Source: Agelas oroides (taxonomy: Eukaryota > Porifera > Demospongiae > Agelasida > Agelasidae). Taken from it: DNA of 64,000 nt. This document shows, piece by piece, positions 1,786 to 63,646 of this stretch. The stretch spans positions 10,049,840 to 10,113,839 of the forward strand of contig OX422190.1 of the NCBI GenBank assembly GCA_949130485.1, read 5' to 3'. The first letter of the stretch is position 1. Each line of letters starts with the position of its first letter. Below the pieces are notes generated by a model, which saw nothing but the letters and a program-made list of their open reading frames with translations, did no database searches and was not told the DNA's origin. A program made the position numbers and the translations under genes.

Positions 1786-2076
1786 CTGAGGATGATACTT
1801 ATGATGTATACCGTGAGGTGGTTGGTCTATCTGGGAGATGGTCAAGTGTGTGCCTGGCTTTGAGACTGCGTCCTTCTGAGCGGAGCAAAATTGCAGTTGC
1901 TCACCCTGGGAACCCTGATGAATGTCTTCAAGACGTTGTTGTCAAGTGGCTTCAGAAGGGTTACAACTACCAGATACATGGTTCTCCTTGCTGGAGGATG
2001 CTGGTAGAGGCAGTGGATGATCCAGCTGGAGGAAATGATTGTGCTTTAGCAGAGGCCATAGCAAAGAAACATGCAG
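1786..2076 (+). CDS. NLR gene A, DEATH-domain exon
   Basis: This 291-bp, phase 1 to phase 1 exon encodes 97 residues that read as a DEATH-superfamily domain, a protein-protein signalling module. Visible features are the early GRWSSVCLAL helix, a KWLQKGY motif, CWRMLVEAV and a closing LAEAIAKKH. Splice sites are CTCAG at the left and CAG|GTATGC at the right. The matching exon of gene B is 294 bp in the same phase but clearly diverged in sequence. Sponge NLRs are known to carry N-terminal DEATH or CARD domains. Exon choice rests on phase agreement with gene B and with the next exon. The alternative is a pseudogene exon if no first exon exists. Confidence 0.8.
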
Positions 2077-2269
2077 GTATGCAATGTAAAACATCCATTC
2101 CAAACAAGGATGGATTCTCAGTAAGCAAGGAGTGTAATTTTTGTCAGTCTTTCAACAAGGTAGGTTAGCTAGTCGTCATCAGGGCAAACAAAAATGTCTA
2201 GTGAAATGTTAAGTTGTTAACTGTTGGAAGTTTCTTGCATGTCATTCTGCTTTGTTTTGCACTCTGTAG

Positions 2270-4252
2270 CGGTAAAAGAAGTACTACTTCCTGAAAAACA
2301 TTCATACAAACAATTCCAAGCACAAGCGTGTGAGTCACAACCCCCAATTAAGCATCTGGGATCTGTAGAAGAAACAACTCTAGAAGCATTCAGTGATGAG
2401 GAATGGGACCCACCAACTGAATTTGCCGATATGCTCACAGAAGTAACTGAACTGCTCAATAAGTCAGCTGATGTGGGGAATCTAAAGTGCTTTTTGGGAC
2501 TCCTCTGCCACCCCCGTACCAATCAGCGATATTTTGACATCAAGCTTTATGACCACTGCAGAACTCCTCGAGAGATCATTATGGCACTTGTTCCTGAGTA
2601 TGTTAATTACATGCACATTCACCTCCTGAGGCGAATTGTGAGGAAGTTTGGAAATGAAAAATCAAAAACTCTCCTAAAGGAATATGAGGATACCATTCCT
2701 CATAAGAAGCCTCTGAAGCGAATGCGTGACCCACTTTCAGATGAAGAGGTAGAAACATGCATTGGAACTAAGGTGATCAAAGTTGTGTATGATGGGGATG
2801 CTAATGTTGACACCACCACTATGGAGGATGTTGAAAAGGTCCAACAAAGCATTGAGAGGAGAACAGAAATTGACCGAATAGTGATTGTGTATGTCAAACA
2901 GTCACCAGGTAGTGTCACATTCAGCTTTCTAATCCCAGAAACTATGGTTAGTGTTTTCATTAATCTGGATGAAGACAGCCAAAGAGAGTTAGCTGATCAG
3001 GGCATTCTTAGGATTCTGGTAAATGATATAGTTATTGACATGCAATCCAAGGCATCAACCATGACTGATACATCACAAGCGGAGACCAAGACCAACACTT
3101 CCACATATACTTCTGGAATGAAACGCATCCCCTTAACTCACGACTCCCCAAAAGCAACACACTGCAACTCAGAATTCCAGCAGCTCATTTCTAAAGTAGA
3201 GACATCAGTTGCAGAGTCTGTAGAAGCTAGTAAGCTGAAAGAATTTCTACAAGGTTTTAGCCACATTCTATACCCAGAAGCTCTGTATATTGATTCCAGA
3301 TTCTTGAAAGATGCAGAGTCTGTCCCCCAAATCTTCACCGCTTTGCAACCCCTTGTACTAAACTTTGTGAACTGGGGTGTTCTTCGGAAGGTTGTTGATG
3401 CTTTTGACATTACAGTAGAGTCAGCACTCCAGTCATACACAAGTAGGTTTCTCCCTCACACTAAACTCTCCACTCTCCCAGACCCTCTGTCTGAAGAAGA
3501 GATTTCAGGATTCAAAGGATTTCAGAAGCTGCGAGTGACTCGTGGTGGTAGTAGTAGAATTGAATGGACACTGGGTGATGTACAGGCAGTGAGAGAAGCA
3601 GTGGAGAAGGCCACGGGAATTGATCAGGATTTTATTATTTATGCCTACTGGGAAGGAGGATTCACCACACACCAGTTCACTTTCCTCATTCCAGAGTCTA
3701 TCAGTGGAATATTTGGAGAACTCTGTGAGGAAGACCTGGCAATCTTAGCTGGGAAAGATGTCCAAAGGTTAGAGGTTGACTATGACACAGTTGCAGACAA
3801 CATTCAGGAGCTGTTCAAGGAACTTCCACTGGCTGAAACACCTGCCATTAGAGAAGGCAATAGGACAAGGACCAAGGACTTTGGACTTCAACACTTTATT
3901 CCTGAAGATGAAATGGAACAAATGAGTAAAGAAGAGTTCACTCGTTTGAATACTCTCATCACAAGCACTCCTGCAGGCAAGCTTCAAGAAACTTGTTCAA
4001 ATGATTTCCTGAAAGTATTTGCAAAAAAGATGGGAAGCTGGAAAGACTTGGCTCCATATCTTGGGATCAATCAGTGGGATCTGGAAGATCTAGCAGAAAT
4101 GTATCCAAGAGATGAAGAAGAGCAGAAGTATGTGGCTCTGATAACTTGGAAGAGTATTGATGTGAACTCTGCCACTTACGAGAGGCTTGTGGAGTGCTTG
4201 TTGACACATGGACATGTTGGTGATGCTAAAGAACTACTGCTACATTTTCAAG
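2270..4252 (+). CDS. NLR gene A, large exon: two copies of an unnamed module plus a second DEATH domain
   Basis: The exon is 1,983 bp, open throughout, and phase 1 at both ends (acceptor CTGTAG|CGG, donor CAAG|GTCAGT). It starts with an acidic linker containing EEWDPPTEF. Two related modules of about 210 residues follow (about nt 2400-3045 and 3160-3815). Each has a helical first half, then DPLSxEE, then a half containing TTxxDVxxV, GID, an FLIPE motif and a (R)LxVxxxxxD end. I do not recognise the module family. The last 90 residues (about nt 3985-4252) are a clear DEATH domain: GSWKDLAPYLGINQWDLEDL, then TWKSIDVNSATYERLVECL. Gene B has the same order. The likely role is signalling and regulatory region of an intracellular immune receptor (inference). 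Confidence 0.85.
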
Positions 4253-4318
4253 GTCAGTACAGACACTTGTGTGACCATTTGTATTTCAATTAGTAATGTG
4301 TGTTTCTTCTTATCTCAG

Positions 4319-5843
4319 GTACCAAAGTCCAACAAGCCCAGAATTTTTTGCAACAAAAATTTCTGAAAGAATTGTTTCCCAAAAGAAAACTGTGGTTTGG
4401 TGCTCCCAAACTACCAAAATTTGATCGAAGGTTTGGAATTATTCAAAATGCCCCTCTCTTGTCTGACCTAGACTATACTTCATGCTATGAAATGATGGAC
4501 CAGTTTCCCTCAGAGATCCAGGAGCTATCTATGAAGTCCATGTTGAACAAGATAACACTAAGAGAAAGTCGTGTTTTCATGTTCAAAGGGCCCCCAGGGT
4601 GCGGTAAATCAGAACTGATTTCTAGAGTATGCAGTTACTGGGCGAAACATTATGCACTGAGACAGTTTTCCCTGGTGCTGTATGTTAACATCTGGGATCT
4701 TCACCAAGGGTGCACTTTGCAGGACTTGATTGACAAACAGTTCAAAGGAAGCACTGTTTCCAGTGAAAAGATTTGTCGTTGGATTGAAGAAGAGAAAGGA
4801 AATAAAATTTTATTTATACTTGATGGATTTTGCCGTAAGTACCTCTATCGATCACCTCTGCGAAATAGAGGCATGTTTTCTGACATTCTATGTGGCCACA
4901 GCAGTTTCTCCAAAACCACAGTAGTCATTTCCACCACATGTTCAGACTTTGTTAAACCCTATTGTGAGAACTTCACCCAGTTTGATATCCTTGGACTGTC
5001 CGATCAACAAATTGGAAAGCAAGTCATTCAACACTTTGACAGTGAGAAAGCATCCAACTTCTTGACCTATCTTGCTGAAAACCCAGAAATAAATGGACTT
5101 GTCTCATCACCTACTTACCTAATTGGAACTATATATGTTTTCACTTACATTTCATATTGCAACCTTCCAGTTACCTGGACCCAACTGTACACATCACTGA
5201 TAGTGTTGGTCAATGAATGGCACGAGGAAGAGCTCAGCAGAGGTATAGATACCAATTCGCTGCAGTCTCAGTTCAAGGATGCTTTACTAGAAGGTGGAAG
5301 GAAGGTTCTTAATTCAGGAGACTTGTCAATGATTACAACAATTGGTAAATCACTCATCTATGATGTTGAAGACTGTGACCACGAACTACCAGATCATAAC
5401 TCTGCTGTGCCATATCTAGAGTACTTTTTGTTTGGCTTGGAAACTGGTCTCAATCTTGAACTAACGCAAAGTGATAAAGATGAATTTGCTTATTTCTGGT
5501 GTTTCCTTGCTGGACTGATTGGTGAAAATGATAGCAAGAATCTGTTAAAACAGTACTACAAAAGGAATGCTTTAAAACTAACAAATTGTTTAACTGAAAC
5601 TGATTATGTGACAGCTGAACAGCAAACAGATCTATCTACCCTAACAGCGGAAGTTGGCAGGACAGTTGTTACCACACATGACATCCACAGTCTTCTTCAC
5701 TGTCTTCCATACATGAAAGATCCCCATACAGTGGTGTTAGACAAATGCTTGCTGGGAACTCAGGCTATGAGGGAATTTTCAAGATTCCTTGCTGCAGACT
5801 CTTGGAGTAATATTCACACATACAGTGGCATTAGGCATCTCCA
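4319..5843 (+). CDS. NLR gene A, NACHT ATPase exon
   Basis: This exon encodes the nucleotide-binding switch of an NLR. The Walker A motif is GPPGCGKSEL (4588-4617) and the Walker B strand is ILFILDGF (about 4807-4830). A sensor-1-like strand TTVVISTTCSDF follows, then a helical segment with LGLSDQQIGK. Walker B is followed by CRKYL rather than the usual acidic pair (DGxDE in many NACHT proteins), so hydrolysis may be atypical. The acceptor is CTCAG|GT after a 66-bp intron. The donor CCA|GTAAGT gives phase 2, the phase of all LRR exons downstream. The exon is nearly identical to its gene B counterpart, with minor differences in the last 130 residues. The protein is expected to be cytosolic. 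Confidence 0.88.
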
Positions 5844-5983
5844 GTAAGTTCTCAGTGAGCTCCCACCTCCATGGTGTCTGCTCCTGTTGAGTTTAGTAGG
5901 TTTAATTCTTGCTATTGTGGTAACTCTGTTATGGTCACCCTGGTACTGTAAATAATTTACACAGTCCAATGCTCAATCCTCAG

Positions 5984-15955: not shown

Positions 15956-16255
15956 GTACTGAGTGTCTTGGTCACATGAAAATGAAGTCCATATTGATTC
16001 CTCCTGTGTCGAGGAGTCCTCATTACATAGCACATTTCTACTAGTTATACAGAGTCTGTTACAGTAGCAACAGAAACATAGACCTTCTGGTTAAACCCAC
16101 CCTCTGTTGCTATGGCAACAAGAATGTTAATTGATCAGTTTTGAGTTTGTAATGCATCATTTCTATTTGAAGCCCATATTGGTATCGTTGGTTCCTTTGG
16201 TAGTTTTAGCAACAGAAACTTACTAACTCAGGTGTGTTCACGTATCCCACTGTAG

Positions 16256-25500: not shown

Positions 25501-28075
25501 CCCAGTAGACCAACTACTGTACTCTATGATTCCTGCAGCTTTTCATCGTAGTGCTTTCTGTTGCTGAAATCTGCTAACAGGGGATTTGCCCCTAAATGAG
25601 GCAAAATTCGGGCAATTTGATAACTATAGACGGTACTGCTAGCACTGAGCCAGCGCTCACATATCTATCCCAGTGCACCAGCTACTATAGTTTAGGAATC
25701 CTGCAGCTTTTCGCCGTAGCTTCTTCTGTTGTCGAGATTGCCTAACACAAAGTTTGCCGTCACACGCGGCTCATTTGGCCGTAACAATGGCCAAATCGGA
25801 CAATTCAGACGTTTACTGAACGACACTGCTAACACTGAGCCGGCTCTTACATAGCTATCCCAGTGCACCTGCTATTATACTTTATGAAGCCTGCAGCTTT
25901 TCGCTGTAGCTTCTTCTGTTGCCGAGGTTAGCTAACACAAACTTCGCACAGAAAGGGCATTACCAGGATGGAAAAATAGTTTTCCGCGGACTGTTCCGTA
26001 TACTACCTGCGTTTCCTATCCACCTACGTGTACTATATTATCCATGGCATAACAACCACGTGTAACTTGTCCATAATCGGACTCGTTCGCGGAAGATTTC
26101 CGGAATCGTTTGCGCATGCGCAAACAGTGGATACCAGGCCACTTTTCCCTCCTCCCACGTGGCCTGGGTACGAGGCTAGTAACAAACTGAACAGGAAACT
26201 GAATATGGTGAAGGATGTAACAAATTAAACAGTGAGATACTGAGCCAAAAGCATTACTCAGGTTGAGGAAGGACATGGCAAGAGGAAGACCATGTTGGAC
26301 GGCATCATCAAGAATGGAACAAATGGAGAAGATGTGTTCCACAGTGCCATTTGTGCCCGATATGAAGCCCTTCTGAAGAGTTGGATTGATAGTATTGTTT
26401 TGCAGGACAAATCTTTCAAGTCTCTTGGCCAGTATTTTGTGGAACAGCTTGGAGACAGTAGAAGTAAGGGCAATGGGACGAAATTTACTGGGTTGAGAAA
26501 GGTCGTCCTCTTTGGGAATCAAGATGATTTCTGCCTGGAACCAGGAAGAAGGGCCATTTTGTGAGGACAGCAACATTTTAGTGAATGTTGTAGCAAGAAA
26601 AGGGTGGGTGCAGGGGAGGTTTTTCAGGTGAAAGTACGTGATACCATCTGCTCCAGAGAAGGACATTGATGAGCGTTTCTGGAGTGTACACTTTATTAAG
26701 CCAGGGGTAATAGGTGACAAATCAAATTCAATTTCAATGTCTGGGATTGGCATCACGGACTGTTGTTGAGCAAGACAATCGGCCGCTTTCTTTGCTTTGT
26801 GCTCTTACCACAAGTGAGTTCTGTACTGAGTGTCTTGGTAACTGGAAATGTGAAGGTTTAACATTGCATACCTACATGCATGGAAACTGTGGGCTTTGGT
26901 TGGTTACTTCCGTGCATACTTCCTCCTACTCCACTGGGTCTTAGTGATGACATAAGCTACGTTAAGTCAGACTCATTGTCCCATTTTATTTTCTCTATTT
27001 GCACTAATTCTGGTGTACTCTCTTTCATAGTCTTTGGGGGAATAGAATTGGAAAGTCTGGAGCCACTGCCCTGGCTGATGCTCTGAGAGTGAACCAGAGC
27101 TTGACAACACTGAAGTAAGTAACTTACTGACACCATACACAAAGTGTATGCATATGTTACAGTTGGCCTGTGTGACATTGGTCGGAATTTTGGTCCCTGT
27201 GAGATCTCCTTAGACTAGGGATAATGTAGCCTCGTACCCAGGCTCCTCCCCATGCAGAAAAGCGGGGAGAGAGCCTGGACGATCTGATCACATGCCCCAT
27301 AATGCACTATGTGTTAGCCTCATACCCAGGCTCCTCCCCATGCATAAAGTTTTTCTGCATAGGGAGGAGCCTGGGTACGAGGCTAGGATAATGTGCTAGT
27401 CACTTTTCTCACAATACACATGTAAATCATGAAAGTCTATTAATTGAAGCCATACCAGTACCACTGAACAGTGAGTCGTCTGGACAATAGTGCATGTTTG
27501 ATGATACGTGGCAAAATAAAGGTGAAATGATTGTAGTCACTAAAGCCGGGGCTGCTCGCTTGAACTGCCAGTGTTCTGACCACTAAACTGTACAACCACT
27601 AGACCTCACAATATATATTGTCACACCTGAAACTTTAGGTATGGGTCTTGAATGTGGCAGCAAAGAACCTACCACTTTATAGAGAGTGAGGTCCACTTCA
27701 AGATGTGATCAGAGGGCGTGGCACCTAGCTATAGACAGCAAAACTGATTGTTAAACATTTGCATTCTGCATTTTATTAATCCACTGGTTCTCACATGCTC
27801 AACTTAGTTGCGTGATAACCAGTGTGATATACTGTGACTTCATGTCAGATCCACGCGGTGTGTTTCATTCCTTTCTTTACATTAATTCCAGAATACTCTT
27901 TTCCACAGTCTTGAACAGAATGAATTTGGAGACTCATTGTCCCATTTTATTTTCTCTACTTGCACTAATTCTGGAGTACTCTCTTTCATAGTCTTTGGGG
28001 GAATGAAATTGGAGAGTCTGGAGCCACTGCACTGGCTGATGCTCTGAGAGTGAACCAGAGCTTGAAAACACTGAA
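22598..28075 (+). CDS. NLR gene A, LRR exons 20-23
   Basis: The exons are 22598-22687 (90 bp), 23025-23108, 27031-27114 and 27992-28075, all phase 2 with no stop. A relic starts at 27909. A type-1 exon expected just before 26810 is gone: the LINE joins directly to its donor, CACAAGTGAGTT. Confidence 0.72.
24659..26178. mobile_element. 1,520-bp non-autonomous DNA element with 9-bp target duplication, copy 1
   Basis: The inverted ends begin TAGCCTCGTACCCAGGCC and match for about 65 bp. GTAACAAAC is duplicated at 24650-24658 and 26179-26187. The uninterrupted LINE copy at 15,325 supplies the empty site. The interior has a RecQ-like fragment, about three diverged repeats of 170-190 bp (around CCTGCAGCTTTTCGCCGTAG) at 25,440-25,940, and an inverted pair near 25,190 and 26,020. 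Confidence 0.88.
24831..25121 (+). pseudogene. RecQ-type helicase fragment inside the DNA element
   Basis: This 96-residue frame from ATG has LKAEQLDAIKYIYDGKDVF, then LPTGFGKSICYETLPFV (Walker A of SF2 RecQ helicases) and VVSPFVSLI (motif Ia). It stops before the DEAH box and all later motifs, so it cannot be an active helicase. The ATG lies after a GC-richer segment starting GAACCGTTAATC. It may be the first exon of a helicase gene carried by a longer autonomous relative. Some eukaryotic DNA transposons (for example Academ) encode SF2 helicases, but I cannot assign a superfamily. Confidence 0.75.
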
Positions 28076-31300: not shown

Positions 31301-32885
31301 TTCCTGCAGCTTTTCATCGTAGTGCTTTCTGTTGCTGAAATCTGCTAACAGGGGATTTGCCCCTAAATGAGGCAAAATTCGGGCAATTTGATAACTATAG
31401 ACGGTACTGCTAGCACTGAGCCAGCGCTCACATATCTATCCCAGTGCACCAGCTACTATAGTTTAGGAATCCTGCAGCTTTTCGCCGTAGCTTCTTCTGT
31501 TGTCGAGATTGCCTAACACAAAGTTTGCCGTCACACGCGGCTCATTTGGCCGTAACAATGGCCAAATCGGACAATTCAGACGTTTACTGAACGACACTGC
31601 TAACACTGAGCCGGCTCTTACATAGCTATCCCAGTGCACCTGCTATTATACTTTATGAAGCCTGCAGCTTTTCGCTGTAGCTTCTTCTGTTGCCGAGGTT
31701 AGCTAACACAAACTTCGCACAGAAAGGGCATTACCAGGATGGAAAAATAGTTTTCCGCGGACTGTTCCGTATACTACCTGCGTTTCCTATCCACCTACGT
31801 GTACTATATTATCCATGGCATAACAACCACGTGTAACTTGTCCATAATCGGACTCGTTCGCGGAAGATTTCCGGAATCGTTTGCGCATGCGCAAACAGTG
31901 GATACCAGGCCACTTTTCCCTCCTCCCACGTGGCCTGGGTACGAGGCTAGTAACAAACTGAACAGGAAACTGAATATGGTGAAGGATGTAACAAATTAAA
32001 CAGTGAGATACTGAGCCAAAAGCATTACTCAGGTTGAGGAAGGACATGGCAAGAGGAAGACCATGTTGGACGGCATCATCAAGAATGGAACAAATGGAGA
32101 AGATGTGTTCCACAGTGCCATTTGTGCCCGATATGAAGCCCTTCTGAAGAGTTGGATTGATAGTATTGTTTTGCAGGACAAATCTTTCAAGTCTCTTGGC
32201 CAGTATTTTGTGGAACAGCTTGGAGACAGTAGAAGTAAGGGCAATGGGACGAAATTTACTGGGTTGAGAAAGGTCGTCCTCTTTGGGAATCAAGATGATT
32301 TCTGCCTGGAACCAGGAAGAAGGGCCATTTTGTGAGGACAGCAACATTTTAGTGAATGTTGTAGCAAGAAAAGGGTGGGTGCAGGGGAGGTTTTTCAGGT
32401 GAAAGTACGTGATACCATCTGCTCCAGAGAAGGACATTGATGAGCGTTTCTGGAGTGTACACTTTATTAAGCCAGGGGTAATAGGTGACAAATCAAATTC
32501 AATTTCAATGTCTGGGATTGGCATCACGGACTGTTGTTGAGCAAGACAATCGGCCGCTTTCTTTGCTTTGTGCTCTTACCACAAGTGAGTTCTGTACTGA
32601 GTGTCTTGGTAACTGGAAATGTGAAGGTTTAACATTGCATACCTACATGCATGGAAACTGTGGGCTTTGGTTGGTTACTTCCGTGCATACTTCCTCCTAC
32701 TCCACTGGGTCTTAGTGATGACATAAGCTACGTTAAGTCAGACTCATTGTCCCATTTTATTTTCTCTATTTGCACTAATTCTGGTGTACTCTCTTTCATA
32801 GTCTTTGGGGGAATAGAATTGGAAAATCTGGAGCCACTGCCCTGGCTGATGCTCTGAGAGTGAACCAGAGCTTGACAACACTGAA
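28369..32885 (+). CDS. NLR gene A, LRR exons 24-26
   Basis: The exons are 28369-28458, 28796-28879 and 32802-32885, phase 2 and stop-free, duplicates of 22598, 23025 and 27031. In the last, GAAAGT became GAAAAT (Ser to Asn). Confidence 0.72.
30430..31949. mobile_element. 1,520-bp DNA element, copy 2
   Basis: It is identical in structure to 24659-26178, with GTAACAAAC at 30421-30429 and 31950-31958. Confidence 0.88.
30602..30892 (+). pseudogene. RecQ-type helicase fragment, second copy
   Basis: The predicted 96 residues are the same as those of 24831-25121. It is a passive passenger of the segmental duplication. Confidence 0.75.
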
Positions 32886-33880: not shown

Positions 33881-34979
33881 GTCTTGAATGCAGAAACTGT
33901 CAAGTGCATGAGCTGGGTCTGTTGGAGTAAGTGATGTTGTGAAATTTTATTGCTGCTGAACATGGCAGATATGGATTGTCTTTATGTAAAAGGCTGTGGA
34001 GTGAGCAGCGCTAACTACAGCTAGTATTCATTTAGTGGGTGTGAATAGACTAGAGAGTTTACTGGTGTGCATAGTTGGCAAAATGGCACAAGATGTAGGG
34101 ATGGTGTGAAATTGTTGTGGTGTCATTCCCATCTAGTTTGGTTGGTTTTTGAGGGTTCCATCCCTACATGCACTTGTTTTCATTCAGAAAACTTTTTTGT
34201 GACTTGTTCCTGCTCTTTTTTTTTTGTATTGCTTTTTAGGAATGGTAAGAGAGAAGTGACATGGGAGGGTAGGCCGAGGGGAAGATGCATGGTGTGTACA
34301 GTATGATAGTAGAAAGAGCTAAGAATTGTCTTAAATTCAAACGATTTGAAGTGAAATCGTCAATCCAAACATCAAACTTCGGGGGGTTTAGAAGTACAGT
34401 CCAAGCAAAGCCTCATACAAACCAAGTGAAAAGCAGATGAGTTTAATAAGGCTTTGCATGCAAGCTTATAAATCCTGTGCTCATTTCACGTGGACTACTA
34501 ATGGGTTCACCGAAAAACTCTCCATAGACTGTCACCAGAGTATTGAGTCGTAAGACCCCATTACAGAACTGTTTGATGGTGAGTAGCTATAGTCTAAATC
34601 GGTTTGAAACGAACGCATAGGGGTCTGTGGAGCTGAACAACCGCCAGTTCTGTGGCCACCTCTATAGTGCAGAAGTTTGGAATGAAGCCATGCACTGTTG
34701 ACTCGGTGCTACTAGAGTTTGAGTATACCAAGCTACCAATAGGCTGCCACTTGCTTCGTTGGAGGAATATGAAGACTCAGGCACAACACAAAAGGAGGAT
34801 GTTAAGAAGACACCAGCCAAAGTGCTACCATCAACTCGCAGTAAACATTGTATGTGTACTATATGCATGTAAATGACTATAACAAGCAAATTTGAAATGT
34901 GAAAGTTGACAATAAAACTTGAAATTGAATATCAGTGGCTAGTGTTCTAAGTCATATGAAGTACTTGATGGTTAAAACA

Positions 34980-35519
34980 CTAGCTGGCATAGTACCGTCT
35001 ATACCACTTGAGCTTGGCTTTTGCAGCCTTCAAATTAGTCATACGAGCTGCTGCCCTTTTTTTGTCAGGGTTCCTCCAATAACTACTATGGGAGGATACG
35101 CAGGAAGCTGCCCTTCCTTTCTCAGGGTCCTCCCAATAGCGGGTATGGGAGGATACGCGGGAAGCTGCCCTTCCTTTCTCAGGGTCCTCCCAATAACGGG
35201 TATGGGAGGATGCCCTGGAAGATGCCCTTTTGGTCTCAGGGTCCTCCCAATAACGGGTATGGGAGGACGCCCTTTTCGTCTCAGGGTCCTTCCAATAACA
35301 GGCATGGGAGGACGCCCTTTTCGTCTCAGGGTCCTTCCAATAACAGGCATGGGAGGACGCCCGGGAAGATGCCCTATGTTTCTCCGGGTCCTTCCAGTAA
35401 TTATTACGGGACGCTTGCCTTTTTTTCCCCTTAGTTTCGCAGGTAGTTCTGCTTGTCCTGCGCTCGTTTCTTTCGGACATTACGCATATTGCGTTCGATG
35501 TAAAGTGCAGCACAACCAC
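34980..35519 (-). CDS. YW-DPE repeat protein of a mobile element, copy 1
   Basis: The predicted product is 179 residues, basic, and mostly about 15-residue repeats of the form YWKDPETKRASSHAC or YWEDPEKGRAASRVSSHTR, ending KLKWYRRYYAS. It is unrecognised. Basic repeats of this style occur beside transposon proteins in sponges and cnidarians (family memory, not verified). A second frame at the 5' end starts with an ATG giving MRNVRKKRAQDKQNY, which resembles the repeat better. In this copy that frame meets a TAA before the A-run that could rejoin the frames. Confidence 0.55.
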   Translation of the reverse strand: MVVLHFTSNAICVMSERNERRTSRTTCETKGKKRQASRNNYWKDPEKHRASSRASSHACYWKDPETKRASSHACYWKDPETKRASSHTRYWEDPETKRASSRASSHTRYWEDPEKGRAASRVSSHTRYWEDPEKGRAASCVSSHSSYWRNPDKKRAAARMTNLKAAKAKLKWYRRYYAS

Positions 35520-38090: not shown

Positions 38091-41064
38091 CATGGCGTAC
38101 GGTAGTACGCCATATGTAGGGATGACCCCGAAAAAAAATGGCCGCCACATTAAAAGTGCACAAATAACACGCTCGAAATGTCTTCGTTAGATTAGTCAAA
38201 GGCCTGTATGAGCCATATCAGGCATTATCGAGTGTTTTCATGAGCAAAAAGACTGTTAAGTTTGCTGGAAAGTATCGCTAAGCACCAGACCGGCAAGTCG
38301 CCAAAACGGACAAATCGTCTATCTTCTGACTTTCTTCTTCTTCCTCTCACCGCGATAGCACGATAACGGCTGGAGCTTTTACAACGATTCAAACACAAAG
38401 CAACAGGATAAATCACTAGGTATTGCACCTGCCACTTATCGGTCTAAAGGAAAGAACTCAAACTTGTCGGCGATTCTCAGGTAATCTCACACTTACGCTA
38501 GCTGCTACACGCCATTTTGCTCGAATGAAATATTACTCATAATTACGTCACCAGGGTTCAACTGAGCACGTGGTTCAGTACTTCGTAGAGAAGGTGAGAT
38601 TGAGCGTTGCAGTTTGCAAATCTGATTTCGTGGATCAGTTGACATGGTTGTGCTGCACTTTACATCGAACGCAATATGCGTAATGTCCGCAAGAAACGAG
38701 CGCAGGACAAGCAGAACTACCTGCGGAACAAAGGGGAAAAAAAGGCAAGCGTCCCGTAATAATTACTGGAAGGACCCGGAGAAACACAGGGCATCTTCCC
38801 GGGCGTCCTCCCATGCCTGTTATTGGAAGGACCCTGAGACGAAAAGGGCGTCCTCCCATGCCTGTTATTGGAAGGACCCTGAGACGAAAAGGGTGTCCTC
38901 CCATGCCTGTTATTGGAAGGACCCTGAGACGAAAAGGGCGTCCTCCCATACCCGTTATTGGGAGGACCCTGAGACCAAAAGGGCATCTTCCAGGGCATCC
39001 TCCCATACCCGTTATTGGGAGGACCCTGAGAAAGGAAGGGCAGCTTCCCGCGTATCCTCCCATACCCGCTATTGGGAGGACCCTGAGAAAGGAAGGGCAG
39101 CTTCCCGCGTATCCTCCCATAGTAGTTATTGGAGGAACCCTGACAAAAAAAGGGCAGCAGCTCGTATGACTAATTTGAAGGCTGCAAAAGCCAAGCTCAA
39201 GTGGTATAGACGGTACTATGCCAGCTAGTGTTTTAACCATCAAGTACTTCATATGACTTAGAACACTAGCCACTGACATTCAATTTCAAGTTTTATTGTC
39301 AACTTTCACATTTCAAATTTGCTTGTTATAGTCATTTACATGCATATAGTACACATACAATGTTTACTGCGAGTGATGGTAGCACTTTGGCTGGTGTCTT
39401 CTTAACATCCTCCTTTTGTGTTGTGCCTGAGTCTTCATATTCCTCCAACGAAGCAAGTGGCAGCCTATTGGTAGCTTGGTATACTCAAACTCTAGTAGCA
39501 CCGAGTCAACAGTGCATGGCTTTATTCCAAACTTCTGCACTAGAGGTGGCCACAGAACTGGCGGTTGTTCAGCTCCACAGACCCCTATGCGTTTGTTTCA
39601 AACCCATTTAGACTATAGCTACTCACCATCAAACAGTTCTGTAATGGGGTCTTACGACTCAATACTCTGGTGACAGTCTATGGAGAGTTTTTTGGTGAAC
39701 CCATTAGTAGTCCACGTGAAATAAGCACAGGATTTATAAGCTTGCATGCAAAGCCTTATTAAACTCATCTGCTTTTCACTTGGTTTTTATGAGGCTTTGC
39801 TTGGACTGTACTTCTAAACCCCCTGAAGTTTGATGTTTGGATTGACGATTTCACTTCAAAGCATTTAAATTTATGACAATTCTTAGCTCTTTCTATATAT
39901 ACTATCATACTGTACACACCATGCATCTTCCCCTCGGCCTACCTTCCCATGTCACTTCTCTCTTACCATTCCTAAACCAAAAAAAAAACAAAGCAAACAA
40001 GTCACAAAAAAGTTTTCTCAATGAAAACAAGCACATGTAGGGATGGAACCCTCAAAAACCAACCAAACAAGATAGGAACAACACCACAATACTTTTACAC
40101 CATCCCTACATCTTGTGCCATTTTGCCAACCACGTACACCACAAAACCCTTCAAATTTAAGTTTTTAGGGTTTGTGCTTTTAGTTTAGTTATAGTTAGTT
40201 TTTATTTAGAAAATACTTTTGGTTTAGTTTAGTTCTAGTTTCCCGGTTTTACAAAATTTTTAGTTAGTTATAGTTTCAAGCACTGAAACTCTAAAACCCC
40301 TTACTAAAAGGATTTAGTTACACTTATTGTTGAAAACAGGCTGTATTCTGTTTACAGTTACGGTTTCTTCTTGTACGTCCTTCGACGTTTTAGTTACAGC
40401 TCCCAAGTTAGCAAGAAATTTAAGTTGCACTTTTGGTTAACTAAATTTTAAAAAGACCATACTAAAATATATTTAGTTAAAGTTATAAAACTAAAACAAC
40501 ACTGCACACCAGCTACACCCACAAACCAACAAACAACCTTTCTCCCTACAACTAGCTACCTACCCCACAAACCCTTCAAACACACCACCATGTTGTTAAC
40601 TACCGACCGACCCAGTACTGCTCACACCACAGCCTTCACTTACAAGACAACCCTTACCTGCCATGCCAAGCAGCTACAAAAGCCCACAACATACGCAACC
40701 CACTCCAACATGCCACACAGACTCAGCACTGATCTTGCACCCCACAGCTTGTACATATTAAACTAGCTAACCATGCCTGCCACACTCAACCGTAACAAAG
40801 TTACAGCCACCCACAACACAACGCACTCTCCATACACAACAACATGCACTACACACCCAGTACTGCTCGTTCCACAGGCTTCCATGCCCAAGACAACCCT
40901 TCTGTGCACACAAGTAACAAACACAATGCATAGTCGGCAAAATGGCACAAGATGTAGGGATGGTGTAAAAGTATTGTGGTGTTGTTCCTATCTTGTTTGG
41001 TTGGTTTTTGAGGGTTCCATCCCTACATGTGCTTGTTTTCATTGAGAAAACTTTTTTGTGACTT
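38091..41064. mobile_element. 3.0-kb composite element, copy 2, inverted relative to copy 1
   Basis: 38091-39990 is the reverse complement of about 34206-36107 with few changes. The foldback unit follows at about 39998-41064, again with AAGTCACAAAAAAGTTTTCT ends, but its interior (40140-40930) differs from copy 1. It includes AT-rich tracts such as AGTTTAGTTATAGTTAG at 40,180-40,490. It is inserted in the same kind of array intron. Confidence 0.7.
38644..39228 (+). CDS. YW-DPE repeat protein of a mobile element, copy 2
   Basis: The product is 194 residues, with one more 15-residue repeat than copy 1 (YWKDPETKRVSSHAC is the extra unit). The alternative upstream frame MRNVRKKRAQDKQNYLRNKG is open here to the A-run at about 38734. 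The true protein may start there if the run shifts frame. Its strong repeat periodicity and preserved frame in both copies suggest recent function. No domain is recognised. Confidence 0.55.
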   Translation: MVVLHFTSNAICVMSARNERRTSRTTCGTKGKKRQASRNNYWKDPEKHRASSRASSHACYWKDPETKRASSHACYWKDPETKRVSSHACYWKDPETKRASSHTRYWEDPETKRASSRASSHTRYWEDPEKGRAASRVSSHTRYWEDPEKGRAASRVSSHSSYWRNPDKKRAAARMTNLKAAKAKLKWYRRYYAS

Positions 41065-55320: not shown

Positions 55321-55678
55321 ATGCCTCCCAATGGTCCTGATGAGTGGCGTGCTAGAATAGGTCACTGGGAGAACAGAAAGCTACGGTGGTACCAGGCGCG
55401 CTGTGGGTCTCGCCCGCGCGTCCCGCTACATCTACATCTGGAGCGGGTGGTCTCGGAGGCGCCTCTGTTGTGCGTCCTGCTGCTGCTCTGGCTGGTGGGA
55501 AAGGTGGGAACAGGCGTGTGCGAGGCAGGAAATGGTGTGCTCTCCTGTCTGGGCAAGCTGGTCCGGTGTGGTCGACGTGAAAGGGTGTGGCCCACACCCT
55601 CTTTATCGCTGCTTCTAGGACTGTCCTTATTGCTAGTGGTAGCAGGTGACGTGGAGACCAATCCAGGACCAATCAGCG
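55321..55678 (+). CDS. NLR gene B exon 1: hydrophobic leader ending in a 2A ribosome-skipping peptide
   Basis: The first in-frame ATG (55321, A at -3) opens 119 codons. After a basic, Trp/Arg-rich start (MPPNGPDEWRARIGHW) comes a hydrophobic stretch LLCVLLLLWLVGKV, a Gly/Cys-rich linker, a second hydrophobic stretch LSLLLGLSLLLVVA, and then GDVETNPGP. The donor AGCG|GTGAGG leaves phase 1, which fits the DEATH exon at 56055 and gives NPGP-IS-A. In known 2A peptides the ribosome fails to make the last Gly-Pro bond and continues. In sea urchin NLRs a Leu-rich 2A leader also works as a signal sequence when skipping fails, giving secreted and cytosolic forms. The same is inferred here. The exon is GC-richer than its surroundings. 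Confidence 0.85.
55645..55671 (+). promoter_or_regulatory. 2A motif GDVETNPGP
   Basis: The codons GGT GAC GTG GAG ACC AAT CCA GGA CCA match the canonical D(V/I)ExNPGP. The expected skip is between Gly at 55666-55668 and Pro at 55669-55671, leaving a 116-residue leader peptide. Confidence 0.92.
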
Positions 55679-56054
55679 GTGAGGGAAAGTACTATAATAT
55701 TTAAGCACGATGTCAAAGATGACCCTTCTTTTCTCTCAGACGAGCGTCTTGCTCAAGTTGACAATTCTGAACTAAGTAAGTTTACTTGTGATGTCTATCC
55801 TGATAGTGCAAGTAATTTATGTCACATTGTGTAACGTACTACATTACAGCAGAGTATAGGCATGTTCTCATTCCTAGCACCTCCTCCCATGCCTGATAAG
55901 AGGGTATCTACAAACTATTTATTTCCCAAAACATCATTGTGACATTAAGTTGTGACCTGCCTCTCCCCTCCTCATAACATCATCATAACCGTCATTTTCA
56001 ACTGTACAAGCTCACTACAATGTCACACAGTCTACCCCCTGATTACCCTTCCAG
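55679..56054 (+). other. Intron 1 of NLR gene B
   Basis: The donor is GTGAGG and the acceptor CCCTTCCAG follows a pyrimidine-rich tract. No repeat or second frame is recognised. Confidence 0.7.
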
Positions 56055-56348
56055 CTTATAATGACTTATATGATGTCTGTGGAGAAGTGTACACTTTAGC
56101 TTCCAAGTGGTCGGACATTAGCTTTGCTCTCAAATTACCACTGTTCCAAGTGGAAAATATTCGCAAAGGAGCTCAAGGTGATGATTGTAATCATTGTCTC
56201 CGAATGGTGCTGTGCAAGTGGCTCCAGAAGTCCTATGAGTATAGCAAATATGGTCCTCCCACTTGGAGGATGCTGGTCAAAGCTGTAGGTGATCCATTTG
56301 GAGGAAACAATTGTGCTTTGGCAGAGACCATAGCAAGCAAGCATCCAG
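56055..56348 (+). CDS. NLR gene B, first DEATH-domain exon
   Basis: This 294-bp exon, phase 1 on both sides, contains SKWSDISFALKLPLFQVENI, CKWLQKSYEYSKYGPPTWRM, and a closing CALAETIASKHPG. It is homologous to 1786-2076 of gene A, but far less similar than the downstream exons are to theirs. After 2A skipping it would be the N-terminus of the cytosolic receptor, starting with Pro. Confidence 0.83.
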
Positions 56349-56823: not shown

Positions 56824-58878
56824 TGGTAAAAGAAGTATTACTTCCTGAGAAGATTTCCAGCAAGCAGCACCAAACACAACTGTCTGAGTTACAACCCTCG
56901 AAACATATGAGATCTGTGCAAGAAACAGCAGTGAAAAATCAAGAACCTGAGGAATTCCTCCCTACTCCTATAGATACACAACCTGTCAGTGATGATGAAT
57001 GGGACCCACCTACTGAATTTGCTTCCATTTTCACAAAAATAGCTAAACAGCTCAATAAGTCAGCTGATGTAGAGGATCTAAAATGCTTCTTGGAAGTCTT
57101 TGGCCATCCCCACACTGGTCAGAGACATATCAGCATCAAACTCTATGCACACTGTGAAACTCCTCGGGAGATCATTAAGGCGCTTGTTCCACGGTACATC
57201 AACTTCATGCACACCCCCATCCTAAGAGGAATTGTGAAGACGTTTGGAGATGAGCAATCAAAAAGTCTCTTGAAGCAGTACGAAGTTAACTTCCCCCGTA
57301 ACAAACCTCTCAAAAGGATGCGTGACCCACTTGCATTTGAAGAGACACAAGATTGCCCTGGAAGCGAGAGGATGAAAGTTACTTGTAACCGGGATTCTAA
57401 TGTTGACACCACCACTATAGCAGATGTTGAAAGGGTGCGAGAAGCCATTAATAGGAACACAGGAATCGATGAGGGTATGATTGTCTATGCCAACCAGACT
57501 CCAGGTAGTGTCGTATTCACATTTCTGATACCAGAAACTGTGGTCAGTGTACTCAGTGATCTGGGTGAAGACAGACAAAGGGACCTAGCTGACCATGGCA
57601 TTATCAGGATTGAAGTGAATGGTCTAGTCATTGACCTGCAATCTTTGCAGGAAGAGACCAAGGCTGATGCATTGCAGCCAGAGATCACAACTGATAAATT
57701 GGAGGAAGAGACCAAGACTGATATATCCACATACACTTCTTCTGGAATGAAACGAGTTCCCTTAACTCATGACTCTCTGAAAGCAACTCAGTGTAACTCA
57801 AAATTTCAGCAGCTCCTTTCTGAAGTAGGGACATCACTTGCAGAGGTTGTAGAAGCAAGCAAGCTGAAGGACTTTCTGCAAAGTTTCAGCCATATTTTAT
57901 ACCCAGAAACTCAGTATATTGATCCCACTCTCCTAAAAGACACAAAGTCCATACCCCAAATGTTCACAGCTTTGCAACCCCAGATTTTGAACTTCCTAAA
58001 TTGGGGTGTTCTATGGAAGGCTATTGATGGTTTTGACATTAAATTGATGCCTGCTTTCCAATCTTACACGAATAGGTTTCCCCCTCACACTAAACTCTCC
58101 ACTCTCCCAGACCCTCTATCTGAAGAAGAGATTTCAGAGTTCAAAGGATTTCAGAAGCTGCGAGTAACTCGTGGTGGTGGTAGTGGAACTGACTGGACCC
58201 TTGGTGATGTACAAGTAGTAAAAGAAGCAGTAGAAAAGGCCACAGGAATTGATCAAAACTTCATCATTTATGGCTACTGGGAGAGAGGATTCACCATGCA
58301 CCAGTTTACTTTCCTCATTCCAGAGTCTATCAGTGGGATATTTTGGGAACTCAGTGAGGAAGACCTGGCAATCTTAGCTGGAAGAGATGTCCAAAGGTTA
58401 GAGGTTGACTATGACACAGTTGCAGACAACATCCAGGAACTGTACCAGGCATGTCCACAGACAGTAGCAACTGTTGCAGAAGACAATAGGATGAGGACCA
58501 AGAGCTTTGGACTCGAGCACTTTATTCCTGAAGATGAAATGGAACAAATGAGTAAAGAAGAGTTAATTTACTTGAATGACCTCATCACAAGCACTCCTGC
58601 AGGCAAGCTTCAAGAAACTTGTTCAAATGATTTCCTAAAAGTATTTGCAAAAAAGATGGGAAGTTGGAAAGACTTGGCTCCGTATCTTGGAATCAATCAG
58701 TGGGATCTGGAGGATCTAGCAGAAATGTACCCACAAGATGAAGAGGAGCAAAAGTATGTGGCCCTGCTCAATTGGAAGAGTATTGATGTGAACTCTGCTA
58801 CTTACGAGAGACTTGTGGAGTGCTTGTTGACACATGGACATGTTGATGATACTAAAGAACTACTGCTACATTTTCAAG
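56824..58878 (+). CDS. NLR gene B, large exon: duplicated module plus second DEATH domain
   Basis: This 2,055-bp open exon has the same plan as 2270-4252: acidic linker (DDEWDPPTEFASIF), module 1 (about nt 57000-57640), a linker with a repeated EEETKxD segment, module 2 (about 57790-58445), then a DEATH domain from about 58610. It is 24 codons longer than gene A, mainly in the two linkers. FLIPE occurs in both modules. Similarity to gene A rises toward the 3' end and is almost complete over the DEATH domain. Confidence 0.85.
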
Positions 58879-58944: not shown

Positions 58945-60493
58945 GTACTGAAGTCCAACAAGCCCATAAGTTTTTGCAACAGAAATTTCTGAAAGAATTG
59001 TTTCCCAAAAGAAAACTGTGGTTTGGTGCTCCCAAACTACCAAAATTTGATCGAAGGTTTGGAATTATTCAAAATGCCCCTCTCTTGTCTGAACTAGACT
59101 ATACTTCATGCTATGAAATGATGGACCGGTTTCCCTCAGAGATCCAGGAACTGTCTATGAAGTCCATGTTGAACAAGATAACACTAAGAGAAAGTCGTGT
59201 TTTCATGTTCAAAGGGCCCCCAGGATGTGGTAAATCAGAACTGATTTCTAGAGTATGCAGTTACTGGGCGAAACATTATGCACTGAGACAGTTTTCCCTG
59301 GTGCTGTATGTTAACATCTGGGATTTTCATCAAGGTTGTTCTTTGCGGGACTTGATTTACAAACAGTTCAAAGGCAGCACTGTTTCCAGTGAAAAGATTT
59401 GTCGTTGGATTGAAGAAGAGAAAGGAAATGGAATTTTATTTATACTTGATGGATTTTGCCGTAAGTACCTCTATCGATCACCTCTGCGAAATAGAGGCAT
59501 GTTTTCTGACATTCTATGTGGGCGCAGTAGTTTCTCCAAATCCACAGTAGTCATTTCCACCACATGTTCAGACTTTGTTAAACCCTATTGTGAGAACTTC
59601 ACACAGCTTGAGATTCTTGGACTCTCCGATCAACAAATTGGAAAGAAAGTCACTCAACACTTTGACAGTGAGAAAGCATCCAACTTCTTGACCTATCTTG
59701 CTGAAAACCCAGAAATAAATGGACTTGTCTCATCACCTACTTACCTAATTGGAACTATATATGTTTTCACTTACATTTCATATGGCAACCTTCCAGTTAC
59801 CTGGACCCAACTGTACACATCACTGGTAGTGTTGGTCAATGAATGGCACGAGGAAGAACTCAGCAGAGGTATAGATACCAATTCGCTGCAGTCTCAGTTC
59901 AAGGATGCTTTACTAGAAGGTGGAAGGAAAGTTCTTAATTCAGGAGACTTGTCATTGATTACAACAATTGGTAAATCACTCATCTATGATGTTGAAGACT
60001 GTGACCATAAACTACCAGATCAGAACTCTGCTGTGCCATATCTGGATCACTTTCTGTTTGCCTTGGAAACTGTCAATCTTGATTACAAGAAACTAACACT
60101 AAGTGATAAAGATGAATTTGCTTATTTCTGGTGTTTCCTTGCTGGACTGATTGCTGAAAATGATAGCAAGAATCTGTTAAAACTGTACTACAAAAGGAAC
60201 ACTTTAAAACTAACAAATTGTTTAACTGAAACTGATTATGTGACAGCTGAACAGCAAGCAGATCTATCTACCATAACAGCGGAAGTTGGCAAGACGGTTG
60301 TTACCACACATGACATCCACAGTCTTCTTCACTGTCTTCCATACATGAAAGATCGCCATACAGTGGTGTTAGACAAATGCTTGCTGGGAACTCAGGCTAT
60401 GAGGGAATTTTCAAGATTCCTTGCTGCAGACTCTTGGAGTAGTATTCACACATACAGTGTTGTTATGCACTACAGTGGCATTAGGCATCTCCA
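58945..60493 (+). CDS. NLR gene B, NACHT ATPase exon
   Basis: The Walker A motif GPPGCGKSEL is near 59214 and Walker B ILFILDGF near 59433, with the same non-acidic CRKY after it. The exon is 24 bp longer than in gene A (extra residues near NLDYKKL and VVMHY before the end). Donor CCA|GTAAGT, phase 2. The 66-bp intron before it differs from that of gene A at only a few bases. Confidence 0.88.
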
Positions 60494-60624: not shown

Positions 60625-63600
60625 TTTGACTGGAGTATTAGATGAAGCAGTCAGTATGATAGCGGTGGCCTTGAAGACTAACTGTTCACTACAGACACTG
60701 AAGTGAGTTGATGTCAGTTGGTATTTACGTGCTTTATATGGTGTATTGCACAGTTTTATGGAGTGTGTTCTATTTGCAGGCACTCATTAGGGTAGGTGTA
60801 AGTAGATTATTATTTCAAGAGTTTTCAAATAGCCTTTTCCATTTGTATAAAGACATGTAGGTACCAAGACAGGAGTTTCTAAGGTAAAATGAATGATAAT
60901 CTGCCTATGATACTCATGATGATGCTGCATGAATGGCTAATGTAGATCTAACTCAAGTTTATTCATATGAGTCTTATACTTAACTGCGACCTCAGAGCCA
61001 GTGGTCTGACTGCCACTGGAGCCATAGCTCTGGCTAGAGCACTGCAACATAACAAGTCACTGGAAGAACTGAAGTGAGTAGTAAATTGAGTGTCTTACTA
61101 TCTCGTTCACTACTTGCACCTACTCTGGAGTACATGTACTCTCTTCCACAGTCTTGAAGGGAATAGAATTGAAGATTCTGGAGTCGCTGCCCTGGCTGAT
61201 GCTCTGAGAGTGAACCAGAGCTTGAAAACACTGAAGTAACTAGTGACTATCCCATACAAAGCAATATAGGCGCAGATAGATTTCTTCATTCCGAATGTAG
61301 TCACTGTGGTGAACATGTTCTCTTGCTATGGTAACAACAATGCCAACTAGACTAGCCACCATGCTGAGAGGCATTGGTAATAAGGTTTTAGTTTAGTCGT
61401 ATCATTTCCAACTGAAGCCCATACAAGTACTACTGTATTGAGGAACTCTCATTGCCAGAGCAAACAGAACGTGTATCTGATCGAAATGTGTTCATGTCTG
61501 CCACTACAGCTTCATGGACAATGATCTGACTGACACTGGAGCCATAGCTCTGGCTAGAGCACTGCAACATAACAAGTCACTGGAAGAAGTGAAGTGAGTT
61601 GTGTACTGAGTGTCTTGGTAACTGGAAATGTGAAGGTTTAACATTGCATACCTACATGCATGGAAATTGTGGGCTTTGGTTGGTTACTTCCGTGCATACT
61701 TCCTCCTACTCCACTAGCTGTTAGTGATGACATAAGCTACGTTAAGTCAGACTCGTCCCATTTTATTTTTGCTACTTGCACTAATTCTGGTGTACTCTCA
61801 TTCATAGTCTTTGGGGGAATGGAATTGGAGAGTCTGGAGCCACTGTCCTGGCTAATGCTCTGAGAGTGAACCAGAGCTTGAAAACACTGAAGTAAGTAAC
61901 TATCCTGGCACCATACAGTAGGCTTAAAAAGCAAAGTGTATGCATATGTTACAGTTGGCCTGTGTGACATTGGTCGGACTTTTGGTACCTGTGAGACAGT
62001 GTGATCTCCTTAGACTAGGGATAATGTGCTAGTCACTTTTCTCACAATACACATGTAAATCATGAAAGTCTATTAATTGAAGCCATACCAGTACCACTGA
62101 ACAGTGAGTGGTCCGGACAGTAGTGCATGTTTGATGGTACGTGGCAAAATAAAGGAAAGTAAAATGATTGGTAGTCACTAAAGCCGGGGCTGCTCACTTG
62201 AACTGCCAGTGTTCTGACCACTAAACTGTACAACCACTAGGCAACCACTAGACCTCACCATTCACGATATGTATTGAACAGGTGGTACTGGTCATGAATG
62301 CTTCAGTATCACACCTGACCAGACCCTCTCCTTGATAGCTAGATATGGGCCTGGAATGTGGCAGCAAAGCACCTACCACTTTATAGAGAGTGAAGTCCAC
62401 TTCGAGATGTGATCAGAGGGCGTGGCACCTAGTTATAGACAGCAAAACTGATTGTTGAACATTTGTATTCTGCATTTTATTCAACCACTGGTTCTCACAT
62501 GCTCAACTTAGTTGCGTGATAACCAGTGTGATATACTGTGACTTCATGTCAGATCCACACTGCGTGTTTCATTCCTTCTCTTTACATTAATTCCAGAATA
62601 CTCTTTTACACAGTCTTAAACAGAATGAAATTGGAGACTCACTGTCCCTTTTTATTTTCTCTACTTGCACTAATTCTGGTGCACTCTCTTCCACAGTCTT
62701 GAAGTGAATAGAATTGGAGAGTCTGGAGCCACTGTCCTGGCTGATGCTCTGAGAGTGAACCAGAGCTTGACAACACTGAAGTAAGTAACTATCCTGGTAC
62801 CATACTGACCTAAAGAGCAAAGTACCCTAAAATCAGGATAATAAGCACCCATAGAAAATAAGCACCCTATGAATATAGGCACCCATTTTGATTACACCAG
62901 CCACATCACGTTTATAAGCACCCATACCAAAATAAGCACCCCCCACATGAAAGAAAAGGCACCTTTACTGTGCAAACAGAAGTGAATATGCTGATTCTGC
63001 TTTTTTTTTTAGTCTCGCAGCTATATTTCGCCAATGTGTATCTCCAATTGTAAGCAAGCTATCGACACGGGATACAAGCCAAAATTTAGGTACGGCCTCT
63101 TTGTAAACATATCCAGGAATTAGCAAAACCTCTCATGGATTCGCTGGTTCCAAGTGCTTTACGTTGATAGGCGGGGGTTGACAACGATCGATCGAATGCT
63201 GACTGCATCTCTGGTTTTAGAAAAGCTACAATCATTGGACAGAAATTAGCAGAAAAAGAAACTCAAGGCCTAAAATATATCAGAGCTAATTTGTTGGTTC
63301 TCACAGAACTGCACGCTACCAGAAAATTAAATGCATTTATTAGCACCCCATGAAAATAAGCATTCATTCTGGCTGCTAATTTCAAAAATAGGCACCGGTG
63401 CTTATGTTTATGGACAAGATAGTTAATATTGGTTAGACTGAACTAGATGATCTCAATTGGACTAAGAAGACTGGTGACTACAGTCACTTTCCTCACAGTA
63501 CAGACACTTGTAATTGAAGCCATACTATGCTTGCACTAATTCTGGAGTACTCTCTTCTACAGTCTTGGAGAGAATAGAATTGGAGATTCTGGAGGCACTG

Positions 63601-63646
63601 CCCTGGCTGATGCTCTGAGAGTGAACCAGAGTTTGAAAACACTGAA
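60625..63646 (+). CDS. NLR gene B, LRR exons 1-7 (array continues beyond the window)
   Basis: Exons are 60625-60702, 60996-61073, 61152-61235, 61510-61593, 61808-61891, 62697-62780 and 63563-63646, all phase 2. The first two match gene A exons 1-2, including the AG-to-GA change before the second. A relic starts at 62614. Exon 61510 ends LEEV instead of LEEL. There is no stop exon in the window. Confidence 0.8.

Follow-up and report, generated by a model that had tools for sequence, protein, structure and literature searches.

Among described systems, the closest to the gene analysed here are the SpNLR2A genes of the sea urchin (Roulston et al. 2016, PMC4981915), which account for about 35% (85/241) of the NLRs of S. 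purpuratus. According to that report, the urchin leader is an N-terminal 2A of 26 amino acids that also serves as the signal sequence; since the two coincide, skipping should detach the signal before it takes effect. In reporters, the wild-type sequence gave about 80% skipping in vitro, and about 15% of the product was found in the medium. The locus described here, in a 64,000-nt window (the whole stretch of DNA analysed) from the sponge Agelas oroides, resembles the urchin genes in combining an N-terminal 2A on a DEATH-NACHT gene with putative LRRs, many genomic copies and a hydrophobic leader. An earlier note on this DNA had cited the urchin genes as precedent for the same design; the precedent is real but the design differs, the leader here comprising 116 residues with a separate hydrophobic segment rather than a 2A that doubles as the signal. 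More generally, and unlike those of the urchin, the leaders of families A-C in this genome span about 115-150 codons with a separate first hydrophobic segment, meet an exon border right after NPGP, have a conserved N-terminal part in one family (family A), and comprise several families, at least one of their carriers being a non-NLR (DEATH-ankyrin) gene.

The 2A itself is like the StopGo/2A elements with an L-rich upstream motif (PMC12846837), in which G-D-[VI]-E-x-NPGP follows a Leu-rich hexapeptide ending in Gly; the elements of that study belong to viral polyproteins, whereas the sponge 2A lies in cellular immune genes. The introduction of the same paper describes natural StopGo use as 'largely confined to viral decoding', and the four upstream motifs assayed there in vitro, including the L-rich motif 6, reached StopGo efficiencies from about 92.7% to almost 100%. 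A hydrophobic segment on a sponge NLR also recalls the transmembrane segments annotated on NLRs of the sponge Dysidea avara and, by citation, of Amphimedon (PMC12909245); the main text of that paper contains neither NPGP nor 'ribosom' and mentions no 2A, and some of its transmembrane annotations could be leader-2A exons. A literature search, with most subscription papers outside its reach, returned no report of 2A in sponge NLRs or immune genes.

The leader exon and the receptor gene behind it

Exon 1 (Table 1) opens with ATG and comprises 119 codons and one further base, giving phase 1, its C-terminal end reading SLLLVVAGDVETNPGPIS; the donor border, G|GTGAGG, lies 7 nt past the NPGP codons, and the frame would reach a stop at 55704 if left unspliced. 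The Leu-rich hydrophobic stretches followed by GDVETNPGP that the earlier note had reported were confirmed, two leader stretches exceeding a KD19 of 1.6 in a Kyte-Doolittle scan (residues 40-69 and 89-113). DVETNPGP conforms to the StopGo/2A core definition of PMC12846837, (D/G/C/N)(V/I)ExNPGP, and the D-V-E-x-NPGP DNA pattern occurs once in the window and in 0/100 dinucleotide shuffles. In a comparison by eye, LLVVAG before the Asp, with Gly last, is like the L-rich class. As both the core and the run of leucines that ends in Gly next to the Asp resemble those of the assayed class, skipping is likely to be efficient.

Classical signal peptides have a short N-terminal region before the hydrophobic core. 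With about 45 residues ahead of its first hydrophobic segment, the leader falls outside the classical type; at 116 residues it is also, as had been remarked, longer than a normal signal peptide. The AF2 model of the leader has helices at residues 6-28, 37-77 and 93-112 with a mean pLDDT of 66.8 (low confidence), the blocks of residues 1-30 reaching 78-88. The N-terminal helix showed no clear amphipathicity, its moment being equalled by 4899/10000 shuffles, and an amphipathic helix at this position was rejected. No clear Pfam family was found in 55 leader sequences, DUF5989 being weak in 21 of them (best E 0.0012; 11.1 bits on the window leader against a cut-off of 27), and the PDB yielded no leader relative by sequence (best E 0.41) or by fold. 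Given these results and the low AF2 confidence, any fold or function of residues 1-45 is putative. A viral source of leader A was likewise rejected, none of eight pattern stretches in viral contigs being confirmed as a relative.

Table 1. Features of the window. Positions count from the first letter of the window; dN/dS values are those of family A.
Feature	Position (strand)	Description	Evidence
Sister gene (gene A)	1794..5847 (+)	DEATH-like exon 1794-2072; Death/NACHT open frames 2221-5847	
Exon 1	55321..55678 (+)	116-residue leader, Pro117 and Ile-Ser; phase-1 donor	Open frame; splicing predicted from sequence
Leader residues 1-45	55321..55455 (+)	Conserved N-terminal segment (MPPNGPDEWRARIGHWENRK...)	dN/dS 0.12; AF2
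First hydrophobic segment, residues 46-62	55456..55506 (+)		KD19 maximum 2.19 within 40-69; dN/dS 0.41
Cys/Arg-rich variable linker, residues 63-94	55507..55602 (+)		dN/dS 0.57; pLDDT <50 at 77-90
Second hydrophobic segment into 2A core, residues 95-117	55603..55671 (+)		KD19 1.92 within 89-113; dN/dS 0.12
2A/StopGo core DVETNPGP	55648..55671 (+)	Predicted skip between Gly116 and Pro117	
Micro-exon	55740..55775 (+)	36 nt (DERLAQVDNSEL including the preceding base), phase 1-1	Counterparts in 26/30 family-A loci
DEATH-like domain exon	56055..56348 (+)		Profile-profile match; Pfam alone negative
Exon 4	56824..58878 (+)	2055 nt; stretch without Pfam assignment and Death domain	Pfam (Death)
Exon 5	58945..60493 (+)	NACHT	Pfam
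LRR-like exon	61152..61235 (+)	84 nt	Pattern scan
Further LRR-like exons	60972-61055, 61510-61593, 63563-63646	84 nt each	Pattern scan

Joining 55678|55740, 55775|56055, 56348|56824 and 58878|58945, at splice sites predicted from the sequence, yields a 1430-codon frame without a stop. Pfam recognises NACHT at residues 999-1155 (46.8 bits; curated cut-off 26.7) and, as the second DEATH of the gene, a Death domain at residues 842-902 (33.5 bits; cut-off 22.6). Pfam made no Death call on the first DEATH-like exon, and a profile of this exon with two paralogues matched the Pfam-Death exons of two other 2A-leader genes (L064 and L067) with an hhalign probability of 94.8 over 99 columns. DEATH thus lies ahead of NACHT as in an NLR, the first DEATH being recognised by profile-profile comparison only; the C-terminal LRRs are represented by 84-nt LRR-like exons from a pattern scan alone, and the gene may extend past the window. 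The claim that the leader is in splice phase with a DEATH-NACHT-LRR receptor therefore stands, with this qualification for the LRRs. The junction originally proposed, 55678|56055, is indeed in phase but skips the micro-exon, of which 36-nt counterparts with AG/GT borders and the same phase were found in 26/30 family-A loci; the scan found none in the other four (L014, L026, L028 and L030), and none was seen by eye in two genes with leaders B or C (L064 and L067). The length of the micro-exon is a multiple of three, so that splice forms with and without it would both be in phase.

The sister gene in the same window is also preceded by a family-A leader, 5.9 kb before its DEATH-like exon and outside the window (G000:C8:10045382-10045762). 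Shortly after its NACHT, positions 6700-8035 hold three 300-nt copies at 518-nt spacing that are 95-99% alike; the LRR exons of this gene might sit in this repeat region. Further repeats in the window include reverse-transcriptase fragments on the minus strand (26016-26804, 31787-32575 and 15268-16044), the first two of which have identical 262-codon frames 5771 bases apart, and an inverted repeat (34834-35362 / 38846-39374) with 529-nt arms that are 99% complementary and 3483 nt apart, the frames there containing short YWKDPETKRASSH-type repeats.

Leader families and their genes across the genome

Scanning of the genome (G000; 259 Mb in 141 contigs) revealed 285 exact 2A core sites, compared with 0 for the reversed pattern and about 0.5 expected at equal base use. 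A siliceous sponge as the source agrees with matches to silicatein, a marker of such sponges: of three short pieces examined, two have the silicatein-type motif CGASYAFS or CGASYVFS and one has CGSCYAFS, and the best match over the full length is an ordinary cathepsin with CGSCWAFS. The earlier note had proposed a search of sponge NLR first exons for NPGP, and the leader-2A layout was found to recur in three families: 37 loci of family A (from 105 rows of matches; 34 near full length and three partial, with a stop in one partial copy), 67 of family B (from 90 rows; best 150 of 189 candidates scored) and 61 of family C (from 80 rows; best 150 of 198 candidates scored), weak and fragment rows being excluded. 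The first 100 of the 285 sites, a non-random set that follows the order of the contigs and covers C1 and part of C2, with fragments counted and some merged by hand, fell into leader B (53 sites), leader C (25), leader A (2), 2A-PHD elements (16) and other sequences (4).

The three families have in common a length of about 115-150 codons, two hydrophobic stretches, a terminal 2A and a phase-1 GT a few bases past NPGP. Leader B starts MGIDLATWRARIGLNYYHMCRP... and leader C contains ...YRKQRQYIYRHCQLGHVTPSYALIVGV..., and the hexapeptide ahead of the core is LLVVAG in A, LLVIAG in B and LLLMSG in C, all three looking by eye like the L-rich class with Gly next to the Asp. As located by a short GT pattern downstream of the core, the phase-1 GT was present in 29/30 family-A loci (exception L029, with an indel), in 29/30 of loci L031-L060 (exception L031) and in 6/6 of sites L068-L073, five of which had been chosen for a nearby NACHT. 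At the exceptional L031 (site G000:C1:4605), the 2A of a leader-C exon leads directly into DEATH-like sequence without a change of frame, and NPGP is not immediately followed by a donor.

The core is well kept in both families for which protein sets were compiled. Among 121 leader-A proteins (the query and 120 of 143 matches), DVETNPGP is exact in 109 and a D/N-V/I-E-x-NPGP core is present in 113; the exceptions are one DMEINPGP and seven without NPGP (one NPGL, the others truncated or diverged earlier). For leader B, the core is kept in 119/120 listed homologues (best 120 of 480), the remaining one having NPGT. Leaders A and C align over 18 columns, at the 2A end only, A and B over 28 columns, and B and C over 73 columns. 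A WRA[RK]IG motif near the N-terminus is common to leader A (111/121) and leader B (111/120), and on this ground the two are probably related; L072 carries QWRAKIGLW.

Association with receptor genes was examined with the first DEATH exon of this gene as query, all of the best 150 of 387 candidates that were scored being used (90 of the 150 rows gave the same counts). For 33/37 family-A leaders, one of these DEATH matches is found on the same strand in the 20 kb downstream, as compared with 0/37 upstream and 0/37 on the opposite strand. Conversely, a family-A leader is present in the 25 kb ahead of 36 of the best 37 DEATH matches (34 different leaders, two of which each precede two matches), as against 0/113 at ranks 38-150. 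With the same query, leader B had a match downstream in 16/67 and upstream in 7/67 loci, none of the 16 being on contig C1, the site of most leader-B copies. In the 30 kb downstream of the leader, a listed NACHT is present for 31/37 family-A, 23/61 family-C and 2/67 family-B leaders (4, 6 and 2 upstream, respectively), the NACHT list being incomplete (best 105 of 314 candidates, plus 63/150 rows of a search scoring the best 150 of 241). Among those listed, 22 NACHT matches are at least 66% identical to that of this gene, and all have a leader within 30 kb upstream: 14 of family A and eight of family C, the latter all on contig C9. The occurrence of close NACHT relatives behind either leader suggests that the leader family changes while the 2A layout stays. 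Across these distances, membership of one gene was judged from position.

The order of exons was read at individual loci. Behind one family-A leader (L065) lie a DEATH-like exon that Pfam does not recognise, a further exon carrying a Pfam Death domain, and NACHT; a second (L066), read by eye, has the same order over the part read. A leader-C locus (L064) has Death, NACHT (partly below the cut-off and in a split frame) and LRR, and a leader-B locus (L067; G000:C1:4497200-4505200) has a Death exon followed by a 1127-codon ankyrin-repeat frame. In a further leader-B locus (L063; G000:C1:4600200-4610100), no recognised receptor was seen by eye in the 9.9 kb read; behind the leader copy lie long tandem repeats (unit with TRYQSTPLYLYIHNIKLVCNSGTLCAGLEREIVVYT), some frames of which are open. 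The idea that all leaders sit on NLRs was rejected, as only 2/67 leader-B loci are near a listed NACHT and L067 is a DEATH-ankyrin gene; the leader goes with predicted DEATH-domain genes, beyond NLRs alone.

Constraint along the leader and a possible transposon origin

To describe selection on the leaders, dN/dS was computed along each family from pooled, non-independent pairs. In family A (29 copies, L029 being left out on account of a frameshift), it was 0.12 over residues 1-45, 0.41 over the first hydrophobic segment, 0.57 over the linker and 0.12 over the second segment with the 2A; dS ranged from 0.30 to 0.51, indicating that these copies are more than recent duplicates. Family B (7 copies) gave 0.09 over columns 1-20, 0.80 over 21-40, 0.20 over 41-60 and 0.21 at the 2A end, and family C gave 0.48 over the first 20 columns and 0.23 at the 2A end (10 of 13 copies, the start pattern having failed in three). 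Low N-terminal dN/dS is thus a clear feature of family A, seen in part in B and not at all in C.

This constraint bears on a possible transposon origin. Non-LTR retrotransposons with a 2A and a hydrophobic stretch before it have reportedly been described by Odon et al. in 2013, and elements of this type are present in the same genome: at L074 (G000:C2:6189000-6189700) and L075 (G000:C1:10533300-10534100), 2A is followed, with no intron, by a PHD-like Cys/His segment. One 2A-PHD piece has at least 82 genome matches (best 150 of 358 candidates scored); eight are 98-100% alike, so that some of these elements look young. The hydrophobic stretch before the 2A in these elements, together with their number in this genome (including the 16 of the first 100 listed sites), would fit an exon derived from such an element and passively retained. 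However, the leader exons stop at a donor where those elements run on: the window exon has no intronless frame into PHD, endonuclease or reverse transcriptase, the leader is under purifying selection, and 36/37 matches of one DEATH clade co-occur with it (best 150 of 387). We therefore regard a passive remnant, which the constraint on the leader disfavours, as very improbable; an ancient origin of the leader from a 2A-PHD-type element may nevertheless lie behind it.

Exon 1 is instead probably a genuine first exon that selection maintains in a sponge NLR gene, one of a large class of swappable leader-2A exons. The sequence evidence for this consists of an open frame with a 2A core, its constraint, a matching splice phase, linkage to DEATH and NACHT exons, and two leader families found before close NACHT relatives.

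Predicted products of the gene

We consider it fairly probable that such a swappable first exon yields a separate membrane micro-protein and a cytosolic receptor from one message. The ribosome would translate the leader, mostly skip the Gly116-Pro117 bond at GDVETNPG|P and release the leader; the receptor would then be made with an N-terminal proline and the DEATH domain near its new N-terminus. The distance from the first hydrophobic stretch to the skip site is about 47-54 residues in A, 59 in B and 94 in C, and the exit tunnel holds 30-40 residues (PMC2978324). The first hydrophobic segment should thus leave the tunnel before the skip, SRP could carry the ribosome to the ER at that point, and ER recognition and skipping would be compatible. 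The released leader would become a small membrane peptide, its conserved N-terminal part having a function of its own, and the receptor would be mainly cytosolic, produced at the ER surface one-for-one with the leader peptide; a small amount of unskipped fusion product is possible. The greater constraint on residues 1-45 than on the hydrophobic segment in family A speaks for a leader micro-protein that persists rather than a disposable signal, and this pattern supports the guess in the earlier note that the leader is a membrane peptide with its own role. Counting against a two-protein gene are the uneven N-terminal constraint in families B and C, the positional nature of the receptor link and the weak linkage of leader B (NACHT 2/67; DEATH 16/67 versus 7/67).

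Dual targeting of the urchin type, in which the leader acts as a signal, the skipped NLR is cytosolic and the unskipped NLR is secretory, membrane-bound or secreted, has the urchin reporters (PMC4981915) and the transmembrane segments of NLRs in Dysidea avara and Amphimedon (PMC12909245) as precedents. Moreover, PMC2978324 describes that an N-terminal signal engaging the translocon can suppress the 2A reaction in some contexts; a regulated fusion is therefore possible, and such suppression would favour the fusion product. The pattern of constraint in family A is nevertheless the opposite of what a plain signal needs. A stretch of 45 residues ahead of the hydrophobic segment is also long for a signal peptide, and the near-universal core of the listed leader-B homologues favours efficient skipping; we consider dual targeting rather unlikely. 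More improbable still is a functionless leader product, with the 2A serving as a stress-tunable brake or the leader merely placing the mRNA at the ER. Roulston et al. consider that stress may influence which outcome occurs, and release with no restart is among the outcomes they list, but a device of this kind leaves unexplained both the codon-level constraint on residues 1-45 in family A and the W-R-A-R/K-I-G motif common to leaders A and B.

Beyond the two-protein gene itself, there is slightly less than an even chance, in our estimation, that sponges have a plug-in system in which interchangeable phase-1, two-segment leader-2A exons are placed on NLR and DEATH-ankyrin genes and each receptor is born 1:1 with a membrane micro-protein, possibly at the ER surface, the micro-protein being a selected partner.

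Taken together, our analysis adds a sponge to the urchin as an animal whose own immune genes make natural use of 2A; a single genome holds well over 100 leader loci, which fall into at least three families and go with two classes of receptor. Should the leader persist as a product, large sets of immune genes in animals would be two-protein genes, and gene models of 'membrane-bound' sponge NLRs would need re-reading. Furthermore, the many natural leader variants make it testable how and why 2A is used outside viruses.
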